In this document: piece by piece, positions 7,920 through 34,623 of the stretch
Layout: each line of letters begins with the position of its first letter
How positions within the stretch are numbered: the first letter of the stretch is position 1
Source: Dysgonamonadaceae bacterium
GTDB lineage: Bacteria; Bacteroidota; Bacteroidia; Bacteroidales; Azobacteroidaceae
Direction: 5' to 3'
Length of the DNA stretch: 35,972 nt
NCBI GenBank assembly: GCA_031259075.1
Contig: JAIRLY010000329.1
Coordinates: 1 to 35,972, forward strand
The notes under the pieces: model-generated
Databases searched by the model: none
The model's input: the letters and a program-made list of their open reading frames with translations, nothing else
Told to the model about the DNA's origin: nothing
Position numbers and translations under genes: made by a program

Positions 7920-8627
7920 ATGAACCGAACTAAGTTATTAATTGTAGATGATGAAGAGGATATTCGAGAAATACTACAGTTTAACCTTGAAAACGAAGGC
8001 TTCCAAATAGATGCCGTTTCTTCCGGAGAAGAAGCATTGGAAAAGCTTTCACCCGAACATAAACTCATCTTACTGGATGTGATGATGGACGGAATTTCAG
8101 GTTTCCGTATGGCCGAGAAATTAAGAAAAGAAAATGTTCAAACACCTATTATTTTTTTGACGGCGAAAAGCAGCGAAAATGATTTATTAACCGGATTTTC
8201 GGTCGGAGCAGACGATTATATTTCCAAACCGTTTTCCATAAAAGAAGTCATCGCACGGGTAAAAGCGATTACGCGCCGTGATTACGAAACAATTCCCAAA
8301 ATCAAGAAAGAGCGGGAAATAATCGTTATCGGTGATTTAAGATTAAATTTAACAGCAAAAAATCTTGAATTAAATAACAAAAAAATCTTTCTCACCAAAA
8401 AAGAATTTGAAATTCTAAGCCTCCTGATTCAACATCCTCAACGGCTTTTTTCCCGGGAAGAAATCTTGCAGGAAGTATGGCAAGATGAAAGTTATGTTCT
8501 TGAAAGAACGGTAGATGTACATGTAGCCCGGTTGCGGAAAAAACTAAATCATTACAACGTTTATATAGCCAATCGTTCCGGTTATGGATATTCTTTTAAC
8601 GATTCCGTACGCATCTTGCCACAATGA
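7920..8627 (+). CDS. phoB: OmpR/PhoB-family response regulator
   Basis: Receiver domain LLIVDDEEDIREILQFNLE, LLDVMMDGISG, ADDYISKPFS; winged-helix RTVDVHVARLRKKL. Confidence 0.9.
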   Translation: MNRTKLLIVDDEEDIREILQFNLENEGFQIDAVSSGEEALEKLSPEHKLILLDVMMDGISGFRMAEKLRKENVQTPIIFLTAKSSENDLLTGFSVGADDYISKPFSIKEVIARVKAITRRDYETIPKIKKEREIIVIGDLRLNLTAKNLELNNKKIFLTKKEFEILSLLIQHPQRLFSREEILQEVWQDESYVLERTVDVHVARLRKKLNHYNVYIANRSGYGYSFNDSVRILPQ

Positions 8628-10673: not shown

Positions 10674-10736
10674 TTAAATCAAGAATTAATTTCTATTTCC
10701 GAATACAACGGAAAGAAAGCCGTTATCAAAATATAG
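10674..10736 (+). pseudogene. Possible N-terminal remnant of a phage antirepressor (AntA-like)
   Basis: LNQELISISEYNGKKAVIKI*; resembles the start of AntA proteins (ELI.I.E.NGKKAVNARELH) until the junction. Confidence 0.4.
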
Positions 10737-11037
10737 CAGTAGCTTTCCTTATATTGTTGAATCTATTTATCAACTTTTCATCTTTCCTGAGAACTTGCAT
10801 GTTATATTTCATTTGCAAGCGCATAAGCGTATCGGCTTCCACTCCAAGTGCAGCCTCAAACAGGATAGCATTACTTTCCGTAAGCGGCCTGCGTCCGTTT
10901 AGTATTTCGTTAACAACGGAATATGACATTTCCATTTGTTTAGCGAGTTTTTTCTGAGAAATGCCCCTGTATTCTATTTCATCCTTTAATATTTCTCCCG
11001 GATGCGTGGGGCAAAAACCATAACCTAAATTTCCCAT
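10726..11037 (-). CDS. higA: HigA-family antitoxin (XRE HTH)
   Basis: PTHPGEILKDEIEYRGISQKKLAKQMEMSYSVVNEILNGRRPLT. Confidence 0.92.
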   Translation of the reverse strand: MGNLGYGFCPTHPGEILKDEIEYRGISQKKLAKQMEMSYSVVNEILNGRRPLTESNAILFEAALGVEADTLMRLQMKYNMQVLRKDEKLINRFNNIRKATAIF

Positions 11038-11040
11038 AAT

Positions 11041-11358
11041 TTATTTATAATGATTTGACAATTCTATAATATTGCATACCGTAATAATAGTTTCCGATTC
11101 AACCGGTCTTGTTTTGAACTCAATCCTGAATTGGTCGTTTACCCGAACCGATTCCAAACCTTCTTTATCCCCTTTCAATTTTTCGTAACGCAGAGCATTG
11201 TATTTATAAAGTGATTCGACGCAAGGAACTCCTTCTAACAAGTCTATACATTTCTTATAGTTTTTGATTACCTGAAGTTGATAGCGATGCTTCTTATCAC
11301 TACATTTCCCCTCATAGTAGAGTTCTTGCAGGTATTTTTTATCGAATTTCACTTCCAT
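11041..11358 (-). CDS. higB: HigB/RelE-superfamily toxin
   Basis: KYNALRYEKLKGDKEGLESVRVNDQFRIEF...CNIIELSNHYK; directly upstream of higA. Confidence 0.9.
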   Translation of the reverse strand: MEVKFDKKYLQELYYEGKCSDKKHRYQLQVIKNYKKCIDLLEGVPCVESLYKYNALRYEKLKGDKEGLESVRVNDQFRIEFKTRPVESETIITVCNIIELSNHYK

Positions 11359-28682: not shown

Positions 28683-28799
28683 CTCATAAATTGTAATTTC
28701 TATTGTGGTACAACAACAAAATTGTAACTTTTGGCCGTTCTTTATTACGGCTGAAATTTTAGCCGGTCAGTTATGTTGTAAAACATAAAAATAAATTAG

Positions 28800-28823
28800 T
28801 ATAGATATAATATTATATCTATA
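28800..28823. promoter_or_regulatory. Perfect 24-bp palindrome TATAGATATAATATTATATCTATA, putative operator
   Basis: 12-bp arms without mismatch, overlapping -7 TATATTTG (28820-28827). Confidence 0.7.
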
Positions 28824-28827
28824 TTTG
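28820..28827 (+). promoter_or_regulatory. -7 element TATATTTG (P2 of the cassette)
   Basis: TAnnTTTG. Confidence 0.5.
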
Positions 28828-28888
28828 CAAAAAAATGTAAAATTTATCTCCGGCGGAGCCAGCCGGTTTAACAAAACGGACAAACAAC

Positions 28889-29440
28889 ATGTATAAGGAA
28901 CTCACTGAACGGCTAAATCAAGTATTAAGACGTAAAAATGTCATTGTGAAACTTTGGAACGAAGAAAAATTTAACAAATGTACATCTGAAGAACTGAAAA
29001 TATTTACTTCGGAACTGGAACAGGGCGCGATGAAAAATGTCCCTTGCTACGAATCGAATAAACGAGGGAAAAACTGGATGGCTAAAATCAGCATCAATCC
29101 GGGAGCGCCAAACGGTATGAATCGAGTGTTCTGTAAGCGTGCTTATGGTGATTTTTACTATTTTGTAGATGAATTAAATGTTAACGACATTGTCGAATTT
29201 GGTGCAGATTATTATTACGGTCGAGGAAACAGATCTTCTCACAGAGAGTATGGAGTTATCATCTCGTTGTCTGAAGTTGAAATTCAATTTGCACTTTTTG
29301 AAAATCATTATGATGCTTTTCATTTGGTGAAGAAAAATCATTATGATCCTAAACACGGATTACTTCTTGAAAAAGAACGTCTTGAAAAGCGATTGAATGA
29401 AATAAACCAAAAACTCATTGAGAATGGACACATTAGTTGA
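28889..29440 (+). CDS. Uncharacterised protein with C-terminal coiled-coil-like tail
   Basis: Long ORF, first gene of an overlapping operon; no family recognised. Confidence 0.75.
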   Translation: MYKELTERLNQVLRRKNVIVKLWNEEKFNKCTSEELKIFTSELEQGAMKNVPCYESNKRGKNWMAKISINPGAPNGMNRVFCKRAYGDFYYFVDELNVNDIVEFGADYYYGRGNRSSHREYGVIISLSEVEIQFALFENHYDAFHLVKKNHYDPKHGLLLEKERLEKRLNEINQKLIENGHIS

Positions 29441-31079
29441 TATAAAAAATCGGATAAGAGGTTCAAAACTTTGGACGAAAAGTGGAATTACCCGCGTCTA
29501 TCTTCCATATCGCATTAATAAAAAAAATGTAAGAACAGACTGTTACTTAGAAATTATTAATGACAAATTGGAACTATTGGTTAAAGTTAGGTCGCTTTTG
29601 TGGGATGTACACCCTAATTGGTGCGATTTGCAAGCCGAAAAACTGAAAGAAAACCTTACAAAGCAATATTATGAAATTATCCATGATTGCGAAAAGAAAC
29701 GGCGGAAAATTCCGCTTCATATCCGCCTGCAAGATAATACGATCCCTCTATGTCATAACAGTATGTTGCATCAAATTAAAGCGTTAAAATTCCTTTGCTC
29801 TATGAAAGTAGCCGCATATTTTGGCGATACCGGCGTCGGAAAAACGAAAGTAGCGATTGATCTGGCGTCCTCTCGTTTCGTTGCTGGAAAAATAAATAAG
29901 GTGATGGTATTTTGTCCGGTTTCAACCATTGATAATTTCAAAATCGAAGTTAATTTATTTTGCCGGTTCTCAAAGTTAATTTGGCAATATTTTGGGATCG
30001 AAAGTATGAGCATGAGCGATCCGGTTTATCTGGAGGCTTTGAACATGGTCGATAATGAAACTATGATTATCATTGATGAAAGCCATTTTGTGAAAGGAGT
30101 AAAAGCAATCCGTAGCGAAAGAATCAAAAAAGTTTGTGATCGTTGTACATACAAACTGATCATGACCGGAACTCCAACCACGGATAACGTTCATGATTTG
30201 TATATGCAGTACAGTATGTTAAGCGAATTGATAACAGAATGTAAATCATGGTCGAAATTTGCCGAACAATTCCTCATATTAGGTGGTTGGGATTGCAGAC
30301 AAATTATCGGATACAAAAATCTTGAATATTTGACAAGCCTTATTGAACCATACACTTATCAAACATTGAAAAAAGAGTGTCTGCAATTACCGAAAAAATC
30401 ATTCCAAACATTTACTTGTAGACTTACAGAAAATCAGGAATATTACTATTACCTGTTAAAGAAAAAGCTACTTGAAATTATTGAAAATACCAAAGACGAT
30501 AATTTGCGTCCGGAAACGATATTTCTTTATCTGACGCGGATGCAACAAGTATCATGTGGATATATTCGACACGACGACGGACAGTTCGAATATATCGGAA
30601 CAAAAAAATTTGATCTGATAGATAATTATATAGATATTAGTAAGCAAACAATATTTTTTTGTAAATATATATTTGAAGTTGACTTATTGATTGAATATCT
30701 TGGAGATATAAATTGTGTAGAATTTACCGGAAGAAATCGAGGAAACCGCTATGAAAAATTAAAACAATTTTCAGAAGGAAAAAAGAAATATTTTGTAGCA
30801 ACGATGAGTTCCGGAGGAATCGGTTTGAATGGGCTTCAACAATGCAGTCAAATGATCTTTTTTTCCAACTCGTTCAAATATTCGGAGCGAAAACATTCTA
30901 TCGGAAGAATCGACAGGGAAGGGCAAAAAAACCAAATGTTGATAACCGATATGATTACTTCTGCCGGGATTGACTGGAAAATAATACACAATTTGTCTCG
31001 TAAACGTAATTTATCGGATGAAATAAAACGGTTAATAGGAAATAAAATTAAACTCCGAGAGTACATACAATCAATTTAA
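29424..31079 (+). CDS. SNF2-like superfamily 2 helicase/ATPase
   Basis: Motif I YFGDTGVGKTKVA, II IIDESHF, III LIMTGTPTTD, V VATMSSGGIGLNGLQQ, VI HSIGRIDREGQ. Confidence 0.9.
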   Translation: MDTLVDIKNRIRGSKLWTKSGITRVYLPYRINKKNVRTDCYLEIINDKLELLVKVRSLLWDVHPNWCDLQAEKLKENLTKQYYEIIHDCEKKRRKIPLHIRLQDNTIPLCHNSMLHQIKALKFLCSMKVAAYFGDTGVGKTKVAIDLASSRFVAGKINKVMVFCPVSTIDNFKIEVNLFCRFSKLIWQYFGIESMSMSDPVYLEALNMVDNETMIIIDESHFVKGVKAIRSERIKKVCDRCTYKLIMTGTPTTDNVHDLYMQYSMLSELITECKSWSKFAEQFLILGGWDCRQIIGYKNLEYLTSLIEPYTYQTLKKECLQLPKKSFQTFTCRLTENQEYYYYLLKKKLLEIIENTKDDNLRPETIFLYLTRMQQVSCGYIRHDDGQFEYIGTKKFDLIDNYIDISKQTIFFCKYIFEVDLLIEYLGDINCVEFTGRNRGNRYEKLKQFSEGKKKYFVATMSSGGIGLNGLQQCSQMIFFSNSFKYSERKHSIGRIDREGQKNQMLITDMITSAGIDWKIIHNLSRKRNLSDEIKRLIGNKIKLREYIQSI

Positions 31080-31133
31080 ATTACTACTTTTATATTTTAG
31101 AACTCATTTTTAACTCTTAATTCATTTATTTGT

Positions 31134-31574
31134 ATGAATAAAAATATTCGATTTGAAGTTTTCCACGGCTTAGATGAACACGTGTATCGCTATGTAGCGC
31201 CTTATGCCATGACAATGTCTTACATTAAACGTAATGGAAACCCAATTACTACATCCGAAAAGCACAGTTGGTATGTAGGATTCGATGAAGATAATCAGAT
31301 GGTTTGTTTCTGTTCCGTAAAAGCTCAGAATAAAGCTAAAAAAATGCAAATTGGGAACTTGTTTATTTTTTCAAGAGAGAAAAAAATTTTTAATTTACTG
31401 GTAAAAAAGCTGATTAAAGATATTGCAAGCAAAGGAATATCTTTGGCGGCGTATGCCAATAATGAAAACAAAAACTGGTTTGTATTGTTAGGATTTGAAA
31501 CCGTTCGCACCGGCGTCAACTGGCATAACATGAAATATAATGACCGTTTACGAGGCAACAATAAAAAGACTTGA
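31134..31574 (+). CDS. GNAT-like/unknown small protein
   Basis: MQIGNLFIFSREKKIFNLLVKKLIKDIASKGISLAAYANNENKNWFVLLGFETVRTG resembles a GNAT-fold C-terminal half. Confidence 0.55.
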   Translation: MNKNIRFEVFHGLDEHVYRYVAPYAMTMSYIKRNGNPITTSEKHSWYVGFDEDNQMVCFCSVKAQNKAKKMQIGNLFIFSREKKIFNLLVKKLIKDIASKGISLAAYANNENKNWFVLLGFETVRTGVNWHNMKYNDRLRGNNKKT

Positions 31575-32832
31575 ATTTGTATTTTCGGAATTTGAATATG
31601 TATATGTTTCATTCTCAGGAGGTAAAGACAGTGGAGTATTACTCAATATCGCTATAGATTACGTCAGAGAACATTATCAAGACAGGAGGCTTGGTGTTTT
31701 TCACATTGACTATGAAGCGCAATATCAGTTCACAACCGATTATGTAAAACAAATTTTCGATTCCTTACCCAATTTCTGCGATAAATATTGGGTTGCCATT
31801 CCGTTGACAGTTCCGTCCTGTACCAGTATGTACAGCAACCATTGGATACCTTGGAATATACCTGAAAAAGATATTTGGGTGCGCCAATTACCGGAAGAAA
31901 GCATTAATATCCTGAATCATAAATTTGATTTCTATGAGTACGGAATGTTGGATTATGATTTTCAAAGACAGTTCGGGGATTGGATTCAACGAAAGACAGG
32001 AAAAAAAACGGCTTGCCTGGTTGGTATTCGGAGTAGAGAAAGTATAGACAGGCGCATTATGCTTGCCAATAGATTTAATGAGCGTAAATACAAAGATATT
32101 CTTTGGAGTACCGGAGGCTTATCGGATAGCCGGTTGCAATATAATTTTTATCCAATTCACGATTGGACTTCGGAAGACATTTGGATATACAACGGACGGT
32201 TTTGTAAACCATACAATAAATTATATGATTTGTTTTACAAAGCCGGTTTAAGCGTCGACCAAATGCGCGTTGCCAGCCCTTTTCTTTCGCAGGGACTGAA
32301 AACACTGCATTTATATAAAGTGATCGAGCCGAATACATGGGGACGAGTAGTAAGCCGTGTCAACGGCGTGAATTTTGCCGGAATATATGGCGGAACAACT
32401 GCTATGGGCTGGAAATCAATTAAAAAACCAAAAAGTCATACATGGAAATCATACCTCAAGTTTTTATTGTCTACACTACCGGAAAATACCCGTAATGCAT
32501 ACATCAAAAAATTCAAAGTATCGGAGGAATTTTGGAGCAAACGGGGTGGGGTATTGGGAGATGATGTAATTGGCGAAATCCAAGAAAATACGGATGCAAA
32601 GATTGAAATTATTGAAGAATCAAATTACAAAACAACAAAACGCACAGTGAAATTTCTCGAATATCCGGATGAACTGAATATCAGTGAATTTCAGGCTGTT
32701 CCATCCTACAAACGTATGGTTGTGTGTATCTTAAAAAACGACCACCTTTGCAAATACATGGGTTTTACAATGACAAAAGAAGAAATCGAAAGAAGAAAAA
32801 ATATAATGGAGAAGTATAAAAATACGCTATGA
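31540..32832 (+). CDS. DUF3440 PAPS-reductase-like (PP-loop) protein, IbrA/YbdN family
   Basis: PP-loop VYVSFSGGKDSGVLLNIA; FDFYEYGMLDYDFQRQFGDW; C-terminal SYKRMVVCILKNDHLCKYMGFTMTKEE typical of DUF3440. Confidence 0.9.
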   Translation: MTVYEATIKRLEFVFSEFEYVYVSFSGGKDSGVLLNIAIDYVREHYQDRRLGVFHIDYEAQYQFTTDYVKQIFDSLPNFCDKYWVAIPLTVPSCTSMYSNHWIPWNIPEKDIWVRQLPEESINILNHKFDFYEYGMLDYDFQRQFGDWIQRKTGKKTACLVGIRSRESIDRRIMLANRFNERKYKDILWSTGGLSDSRLQYNFYPIHDWTSEDIWIYNGRFCKPYNKLYDLFYKAGLSVDQMRVASPFLSQGLKTLHLYKVIEPNTWGRVVSRVNGVNFAGIYGGTTAMGWKSIKKPKSHTWKSYLKFLLSTLPENTRNAYIKKFKVSEEFWSKRGGVLGDDVIGEIQENTDAKIEIIEESNYKTTKRTVKFLEYPDELNISEFQAVPSYKRMVVCILKNDHLCKYMGFTMTKEEIERRKNIMEKYKNTL

Positions 32833-33365
32833 TGCAACAAAATGAAGTCAATGCGAGTTACAAAAGTCCGGTGTATAATGTGATCGCTGTACCTGTGGAG
32901 AAAGTACAGGCAAACAGCTACAATCCGAACACTGTTGCACCGCCGGAAATGCAATTACTATACAAATCGATAAAAGAAGACGGCTATACGATGCCGATTG
33001 TCTGCTATTATCTACCCGAAATCGACTGCTACGAAATTGTAGATGGTTTTCACCGTTATACTATAATGCTGAAACACAAAGATATATACGACCGCGAAAA
33101 TGGAATGATACCGGTGGTAGTAATCAATAAAGACATATCAAACCGGATGGCTTCTACTATACGACATAACCGTGCACGCGGTATACATAATATCGAATTG
33201 ATGAGTAATGTGGTTTCCGAATTAACAAAATCCGGTATGTCGGATGCTTGGATCATGAAAAACATAGGGATGGATGCCGATGAATTGCTACGTTTAAAAC
33301 AAATATCAGGTTTGGCTGATTTATTCGCAAATAAAGAATTTTCCGAAGCAAATAATATACTGTAA
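32829..33365 (+). CDS. ParB/sulfiredoxin-fold protein, IbrB/YbdM family
   Basis: VPVEKVQANSYNPN, YEIVDGFHRYTIM, TIRHNRARGIHNIELMSNVVSELTKSGMSDAWIMKNIGM; ATGA overlap with the DUF3440 gene. Confidence 0.9.
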   Translation: MMQQNEVNASYKSPVYNVIAVPVEKVQANSYNPNTVAPPEMQLLYKSIKEDGYTMPIVCYYLPEIDCYEIVDGFHRYTIMLKHKDIYDRENGMIPVVVINKDISNRMASTIRHNRARGIHNIELMSNVVSELTKSGMSDAWIMKNIGMDADELLRLKQISGLADLFANKEFSEANNIL

Positions 33366-33607
33366 TGGCAAAATATCCTAAATTTTTCATCGCTAAAAAT
33401 CTGATGGCAGATCCGGATGGTATTTATATTTTTCACAGCAGAAAACCGCGTTTTTTGGCAAAAGTGGAAAATAGCGCTTTTGAAATAATGGACGATATTG
33501 ACAATGCTTCGGAATATTATCATGGCGATGCGGATAAATTGAATAAATTAATTAAACGCATGATAGACTGGTATAAATTATATAGAATACAAAAATGGCA
33601 GAAATAG
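33365..33607 (+). CDS. Small hypothetical protein
   Basis: 80-aa ORF translationally coupled (TAATG) to the ParB-like gene. Confidence 0.6.
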   Translation: MAKYPKFFIAKNLMADPDGIYIFHSRKPRFLAKVENSAFEIMDDIDNASEYYHGDADKLNKLIKRMIDWYKLYRIQKWQK

Positions 33608-33807
33608 ATAAATTTACGGAGAAAATTAAATATCTGAAATGTCGCAGTTTTTTTCCGGATTATTGCGGTATAAGATATACTTCAGGGATACTTCGTAAAC
33701 TTTCCGGAAAGAATGCAAATGGAAATCCCGGAAAATTCACAGACGAGCAAAAAAAAACAATTATAGAGGGATTGGAAAAATTTATATCTGAAATAAAAAC
33801 ATTATAA
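33595..33807 (+). CDS. Small hypothetical protein
   Basis: 70-aa ORF overlapping the preceding ORF by 13 nt. Confidence 0.55.
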   Translation: MAEIDKFTEKIKYLKCRSFFPDYCGIRYTSGILRKLSGKNANGNPGKFTDEQKKTIIEGLEKFISEIKTL

Positions 33808-34052
33808 AAAACACTGACAAATTTCCTCCGGTCGATGACCTGCGATTATGAAAATTACATCCTACCAGGACTTTTGAGACGGCATTATTCATTATTCATT
33901 TTACATTTAATTCCTAATTCTTTGTAATATTTATTGTTTTTCTAAATCACTAATTTTGTCCGATTTTTAAACAAATTTTTCAATTTTTCATAAAGAAACA
34001 GACAGTATTTTTTAACATTATATATTAATTGAGAAAGCGTTAGCTTATATTC

Positions 34053-34231
34053 TTGCTTACAGAAATATCGACAATTTCAGCATATACAAGGATAAGTTAG
34101 TAAGCGCTCACGTGGATGCGTGGGTATAACTTATTTGTATATGCGGGTAGTCGATAACCTCTGTAAGCAAATAAAGTTAAAAGTCCCACGCTTCGTATTT
34201 TTAAACCGCTTCTCTTCGGGACCTGGAAGCG
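34053..34231 (+). ncRNA. Candidate structured RNA: nested long stem with apical hairpin, possible pseudoknot and 3' hairpin
   Basis: Stems TTGCTTACAG/CTGTAAGCAA, TATCGAC/GTCGATA, GCATATACAA/TTGTATATGC, ATAAGTTA/TAACTTAT, CTCACG/CGTGGG; GCGTGGG (34118-34124) complementary to CCCACGC (34185-34191); CGCTTC/GAAGCG. Confidence 0.55.
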
Positions 34232-34316
34232 AACTAAGAACTAAGAGTTAAAAACTAAAAGTTAAAAGTTAAGAATGGACGCCGCGCCTGTATCACAATA
34301 GTTTATTCCGGTCGAA

Positions 34317-34385
34317 GGTAAAGACAACTATTCGAATCAAAAAATCATTTTTCTCATTGTTTAATAAAAGCCGGTTGTCTTTACC
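34317..34385. repeat. Inverted repeat GGTAAAGACAAC ... GTTGTCTTTACC
   Basis: Perfect 12-bp arms (34317-34328 / 34374-34385). Confidence 0.9.
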
Positions 34386-34427
34386 GGAGACGGAAATTGA
34401 GAACTAAGAGTTAAGAACTAAGAGTTA

Positions 34428-34543
34428 AGAATGGAAAATAGAGAATAGAGAAAGGAAGGCCGGAGGCCTTCAATATGAATAACCCCCAATGAAGCGAAGC
34501 GATTGGGGGGACAAACAAAAAACAGCGACGCTTTCAACCCCGA
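34428..34543 (+). repeat. Hairpin-containing repeat element, copy 2
   Basis: gaatggaaaatagagaa...aaggccggaggcctt...gaataacccccaatgaagcgaagcgattgggggg...gcgacgctttcaacccc; inverted match to 238-350. Confidence 0.8.
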
Positions 34544-34623
34544 AGCGGGTTGAACAGGTAAAAGAGAACGTAATCACGGAACTAAAATAAATAACATTAT
34601 TAAAATTTTAATTTTTATTAAAC

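Follow-up and report, generated by a model that had tools for sequence, protein, structure and literature searches.

The cassette and its genes

The stretch of DNA analyzed here, called the window, comprises positions 1 to 35,972 of contig JAIRLY010000329.1 from a Dysgonamonadaceae bacterium (assembly GCA_031259075.1; genome G000, 3.8 Mb in 424 contigs, with a single DUF3440 gene). A survey of its open reading frames (ORFs) finds seven co-directional genes, overlaps included, exactly as the initial annotation had placed them (Table 1); the SNF2 gene and orf3 are separated by 54 nt and do not overlap. This cassette is flanked by tadA and an epimerase gene on one side and by surface genes on the other, where genes of PKD-domain surface proteins adjoin it. 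IbrA and IbrB are the core of the module. The window cassette is a hybrid, in which an SNF2-orf3 block and small phage genes (orf1 and orf6) are grouped around a phage-type IbrAB.

Table 1. Genes of the cassette and the region preceding them (window coordinates)
Feature	Position	Strand	Remarks
promoter/leader region	28770..28888	+	putative promoter; Bacteroidetes-type -7 element (TATATTTG); GC-rich CCGGC...GCCGG leader hairpin
orf1	28889..29440	+	183 aa
SNF2	29424..31079	+	551 aa
orf3	31134..31574	+	146 aa
IbrA	31540..32832	+	430 aa
IbrB	32829..33365	+	178 aa
orf6	33365..33607	+	80 aa
orf7	33595..33807	+	70 aa; candidate module member

IbrA matches PF11922 (DUF3440) with an E-value of 7.4e-82 (score 273.9 bits, cut-off 25) and the phage family phrog_2302 with 1.4e-102. 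It is a PP-loop ATP pyrophosphatase (SGGKDS) of the phosphoadenosine phosphosulfate (PAPS) reductase/DndC superfamily, and both SGGKDS and GIRxxESxxR are kept across an alignment of 53 homologues. IbrB has the ParB/sulfiredoxin fold. It matches ParB_N (PF02195) just above the cut-off (6.8e-6; 26.5 bits against 26.3) and the phage family phrog_2159 with 3.3e-80. Its motifs DGFHR (DGxHR in the family) and NRARG, in which D72, G73, H75, R76 and N114/G118 are invariant, occupy positions that we take to be equivalent to the nucleoside triphosphate (NTP)-binding motifs of ParB and SerK. The Pfam and PHROGs assignments, the adjacency of the genes and the SGGKDS and GxHR motifs thus bear out the identification of the DUF3440 and ParB-fold pair as IbrA/IbrB. 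The Escherichia coli proteins of that name (YbdN/YbdM; PF11922 and ParB_N; phrog_2302 and phrog_2159) are homologous over nearly their full length, are encoded by adjacent, overlapping genes and keep the PP-loop and GxHR motifs, but are not accompanied by the SNF2, GNAT-fold, orf1 or orf6 partners found in the window.

The distant similarity of IbrA to DndC, and the resemblance of a PP-loop and ParB-like pair to DndC and DndB, raise the question of whether the cassette is a Dnd/Ssp-like variant of DNA phosphorothioation with IbrA as the DndC equivalent. This is very improbable. The likeness is at the superfamily level, as IbrA scores 27.8 bits against the DndC model TIGR03183, whose cut-off is 290.4. 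C404 is the only near-invariant cysteine of the family also present in the window IbrA, which lacks two other cysteines that are frequent in the family; there is therefore no DndC-like cysteine cluster. The Dnd/Ssp partner set (cysteine desulfurase, DndD/E, SspB/C) is absent from the cassette. Dnd/Ssp and type 4 BREX (through BrxP) share with it a PP-loop PAPS-reductase-like enzyme, and Dnd also has the ParB-fold DndB, but the cassette has SNF2 and GNAT-fold partners instead of cysteine desulfurase, DndD/E, SspB/D and PglZ. BrxP is a weak superfamily match for IbrA, and other BREX core genes are not seen in the cassette. Membership in Dnd, Ssp or BREX was rejected because of the missing partners and cysteines, and the earlier view of a system distinct from Dnd/Ssp holds, as neither DndA/D/E nor a DndC-like cysteine set is present. 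The Dpd system of 7-deazaguanine DNA modification resembles the cassette in its SNF2 helicase (DpdE, a weak match), but the transglycosylase DpdA is not in the cassette and IbrA is unrelated to the Dpd enzymes.

The window SNF2 protein matches PF00176 (8.5e-20), PF00271 and the phage family phrog_62 (3.9e-76), which places it among double-stranded DNA translocases and helicases. A motif alignment finds all of its ATPase motifs intact, and it carries an N-terminal extension of about 110 residues. In the tree it falls into a second, longer lineage (support 0.998) together with the proteins of loci L025 and L086 and an ATPase-dead group, and differs in lineage from the phage SNF2 proteins of about 400 residues. 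The ATPase-dead homologues (L035:351-2063, L036:5636-7279 and L085:5122-6753) lack the residues of Walker A, DExH and motifs III, V and VI. They are still full-length and are encoded in an SNF2-orf3-IbrA operon. For the L035/L036 pair the amino-acid-changing divergence (dN) of 0.36 is far below the silent divergence (dS) of about 3, which suggests that selection keeps a protein unable to hydrolyze ATP in the usual way. Judged from their sequences, these homologues are candidate pseudo-translocase scaffolds.

The AlphaFold (AF2) model of orf3, which is of moderate confidence (mean predicted local distance difference test score, pLDDT, of 65), matches GCN5/PCAF/PaiA in Foldseek (E 1.2e-5, probability 1.0). 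The fold implied by the earlier 'GNAT-like' label is therefore supported, but the acetyl-CoA pyrophosphate loop Q/RxxGxG/A is found neither in orf3 nor in any of its 41 relatives, so that orf3 is treated here as an adaptor or a protein of some other activity. The SNF2 protein of L025 has a C-terminal orf3 domain with a weak Acetyltransf_1 match (residues 604-668); this is the only fusion noted. In the tree, the window orf3 falls into one clade with its counterparts in L045 and L076 (support 1.0), and no orf3 homologues were found in viral contigs.

Pfam gives no family above its cut-off for orf1, orf3 or orf6. Orf1 consists of a beta-rich domain and a C-terminal helix, and its family is marked by the motif VPxxE..RGxNWxA..EFGADYY..RxY. 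A search of PDB and BFVD with its AF2 model (mean pLDDT 80, core above 90) gives no structural match at E<=0.001. Orf1 has no PADLOC family either, the profile of the phrog_5809-type protein does not match it, and the PHROGs comparison gives no phrog_5809 match. Members of the orf1 family occur in nine viral contigs (IMG/VR), and IbrAB lies beside none of them where the neighbors are mapped. Orf1 belongs to an undescribed family of small phage proteins. No known family could be assigned to it; a match in genome G165 was due to chance and lies inside a glycosidase-like protein. Family members with RGxNW...EFGADYY, without a strong Pfam/PHROG or structural match, are seen in L043, L090, L092 and L096-L098, and the one in L043 adjoins a 517-aa ORF, a putative TROVE-domain protein. 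Orf6 has homologues in L034/L016 (partial) and in L086 (1.2e-50), the latter at a prophage end adjoining IbrB and two integrases. Orf7 matches DUF5053 (PF16476) below the cut-off (E=3.2e-4) and has no homologue in the other loci examined.

The second copy and the two parent architectures

A second copy of the cassette is present in G017 (L034; also L045, a Dysgonamonadaceae metagenome-assembled genome), where orf1, SNF2, orf3, IbrA, IbrB and the start of orf6 follow each other in the window order; orf6 is partial because the contig of L034 ends there. The protein identity between the two copies is 79% for orf1, 84% for SNF2, 65% for orf3, 82% for IbrA and 84% for IbrB. The amino-acid-changing divergence is about 0.1 (0.24 for orf3) while the silent divergence is saturated or 1.7, which points to purifying selection on the cassette. 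The L034 copy is flanked by genes other than those of the window. Retention of the gene order between different neighbors shows the cassette to be a transferable unit. Related genomes lack the cassette behind tadA and carry a lipoprotein-like gene, a YraN-like gene or others there; at the window site the cassette is therefore an insertion. As the order recurs outside a prophage in L034/L045, it is not limited to complete prophage early regions.

The similarity between the copies extends about 110 bp upstream of orf1, over a promoter-like TTTG element and the leader hairpin, with ACATAAAAATAAATTAG...TTTGCAAAAAAA...CTCCGGC..GCCAGCCGG common to both; farther out the sequences are unrelated, and the leader boundary near 28770 is our reading of this comparison. 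At 28800-28823 the window has a perfect 24-bp palindrome, TATAGATATAATATTATATCTATA, which lies across the -7 element presumed for the promoter and is unusual by composition (shuffled sequences give 0 expected matches). It was considered as a conserved operator and rejected, since it is not found upstream of the L034 copy; for the same reason it is not counted as part of the cassette.

Within the same family, 18 of 48 genomes have DUF3440; the figure is 34 of 393 for the order and 5 of 396 for a phylum-wide sample. Across Bacteroidales chromosomes orf3-IbrA-IbrB is mostly a stand-alone operon scattered patchily amid unrelated genes. Among the 45 genome loci that can be scored on their upstream side (our count), orf3 directly precedes IbrA in 41 (16 of 17 at the family level and 25 of 28 at the order level); SNF2 is found in 11 of the 45 scorable loci.

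The viral architecture consists of a phrog_5809 protein of about 107 residues, an SNF2 protein of about 400 residues, IbrA and IbrB. It is seen in Streptococcus phage PY1 and Lactobacillus phage CR28 (of these two, only CR28 has the small protein called by the profile), in the uncultured viral contigs L050-L056 (small protein uncalled in L052 and L053), in contig L046 and in the prophage-like loci L040, L082 and L084. Flavobacterium phage 6H has the order small protein, 97-aa protein, SNF2, IbrB, IbrA, and Fusobacterium phage phiFN37 the order IbrA, IbrB, 126-aa protein, SNF2. That the partners stay together in three differing phage gene orders argues for a functional linkage. IbrA, SNF2 and the small protein are each matched by 90 Flavobacterium phage records, one of which was read for its layout. 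SNF2 is therefore a real and recurring partner in phages and chromosomes, as proposed earlier, and co-occurrence extends beyond the DUF3440-ParB pair to SNF2, orf3 and phrog_5809.

The window cassette resembles this module of phages 6H/FCL-2, PY1, CR28 and phiFN37 in that a co-directional SNF2 gene lies within a few genes of IbrA/IbrB next to a small protein, but it has orf1 in place of phrog_5809, orf3 in addition and no phage genes around it. Locus L076 is also a hybrid, with phrog_5809-SNF2-orf3-IbrA. The IbrA proteins of the window and of L045 cluster in the tree with that of phage contig L050 (support 1.0). This proximity to a phage IbrA and the relation of orf1 to a phage small-protein family support the phage derivation proposed in the initial annotation. 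Its label of a satellite is not supported, as the ORF survey finds no packaging, integrase, capsid or other structural genes and no tRNA beside the cassette. On these grounds, the reading that the window copy lies within a complete prophage or satellite was rejected.

Prophage copies adjacent to integrases are found in L046, L052, L082 and L086, a position that is the usual site of lysogenic-conversion genes. At the prophage end in L086 (6618-12319) lie SNF2, three methyltransferase-like ORFs, an IbrA-like protein, IbrB, orf6 and two integrases. The methyltransferase-like ORFs, situated between SNF2 and IbrA, look split or degenerate; one carries DPPW and one has a sub-threshold Pfam match. 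From its gene content, the locus is a divergent form of the module. In the prophage-like locus L040, the position of orf3 between SNF2 and IbrA is taken by a protein of 133 residues (8116-8517), which carries a CxGCGVCC motif and has no Pfam match.

The lysogenic-conversion position with adjoining integrases, the patchy spread within the family and order, and the presence of SNF2 proteins in PADLOC systems make anti-phage defense or superinfection exclusion a serious rival, if on balance an unlikely one. A prophage-borne system, later domesticated, would use SNF2 and IbrAB to recognize and disable invading DNA. However, PADLOC models match IbrA and IbrB no deeper than the superfamily, the cassette encodes no nuclease or toxin, and no defense island is found in its flanks. 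Moreover, isolated Streptococcus and Flavobacterium phages carry the module, and there self-modification or host takeover is equally likely.

Possible action of the module on DNA

The catalytic motifs, the conservation of the gene block outside prophages, the trees, the gene orders, the integrase-side copies, the SNF2-orf3 fusion, the GNAT fold and the phage neighbors are all counted here for one reading, which is preferred tentatively and falls short of an even chance: the window cassette may be a chromosomally captured, phage-derived SNF2-IbrAB module that works by the steps below. The module probably acts on DNA. Indirect support for such a role comes from SNF2 itself, from the methyltransferase-like ORFs of L086 and from genes annotated as ParB-like and as queuine tRNA-ribosyltransferase (TGT) near the module of phiFN37; Pfam gave no confirmation of the TGT annotation.

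SNF2 would travel along double-stranded DNA and position the complex. IbrA would then spend ATP through its PP-loop to adenylate or otherwise activate a nucleotide target, perhaps in a sulfur-independent modification of DNA or nucleotides. IbrB might bind NTP and DNA, or gate the reaction, and orf3 could be a non-acetylating adaptor that links the motor to the enzymes. The DNA, marked or remodeled in this way, might change gene expression, as with IbrAB and eib in E. coli, or influence the competition between phages.

Several observations weigh against this picture. The cassette encodes neither a sulfur donor nor a nuclease or another effector. Most chromosomal copies are without SNF2, which suggests that IbrA-IbrB-orf3 can work motor-free, and the loss of the ATPase motifs in three SNF2 homologues implies that motor activity is not always needed. 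The E. coli ybdNM genes adjoin citrate genes (PMC9068703), a setting that gives no pointer to DNA.

IbrAB of E. coli has been reported to activate the prophage eib genes (Sandt 2002, as cited in PMC10434257), a report that is compatible with a DNA mark and with pure regulation alike. It is the basis for a further alternative, that IbrAB, with SNF2 and the GNAT-fold protein, is a transcription co-activator only, which governs phage or host surface genes and leaves the DNA unmodified. The surface-protein genes next to the window cassette agree with such a role, but these neighbors are not kept beside the module elsewhere, and the strict conservation of SGGKDS and GIRxxES argues for catalysis by IbrA. 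This alternative is quite unlikely.

For more than 20 years IbrA and IbrB have carried the annotation 'co-activator of prophage gene expression', and to our knowledge no biochemical activity has been assigned to them. The recurrent SNF2 motor, its GNAT-fold partner, here taken as an adaptor, the fusion of the two and the conservation of ATPase-dead variants point to a DNA-bound complex. It is possible, though doubtful, that SNF2-IbrAB, with or without the GNAT-fold protein, is an undescribed multi-phylum system of phages and bacteria that makes a new DNA modification, the PP-loop/ParB pair being brought to DNA by a motor or, in some lineages, by an ATPase-dead SNF2 scaffold. If DNA modification is true, common phages would bear a further DNA modification chemistry. 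SNF2, orf3, the fusion and the ATPase-dead variants provide concrete mutants and partners for studying IbrA/IbrB.

IbrAB is already known; the widespread SNF2-IbrAB module was not found described in the literature searched. No description of SNF2-IbrAB, or of SNF2 with PAPS reductase and ParB, as a system was encountered, a weak absence because subscription papers and preprints lay outside the search. The authors of the Flavobacterium phage FCL-2 study remarked on two ORFs upstream of IbrAB and described no system (PMC4541368).

Other features of the window

No Rfam elements are found in the window. Immediately to the right of the cassette, at 33930-34575, lies a dispersed intergenic repeat of about 500-650 nt, which likewise has no Rfam match. 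It has at least 40 copies in the genome, with 83-89% identity over a 221-nt core (40 scored among 95 candidates) and unrelated flanking genes, and weaker relatives in many genomes of the same genus. The repeat holds a very stable hairpin of about 110 nt (fold z-score -6.7) and, from these properties, resembles a miniature inverted-repeat transposable element (MITE) or another non-autonomous element. On the reverse strand, positions 10726-11358 encode a HigB-like toxin and helix-turn-helix (HTH) antitoxin pair.

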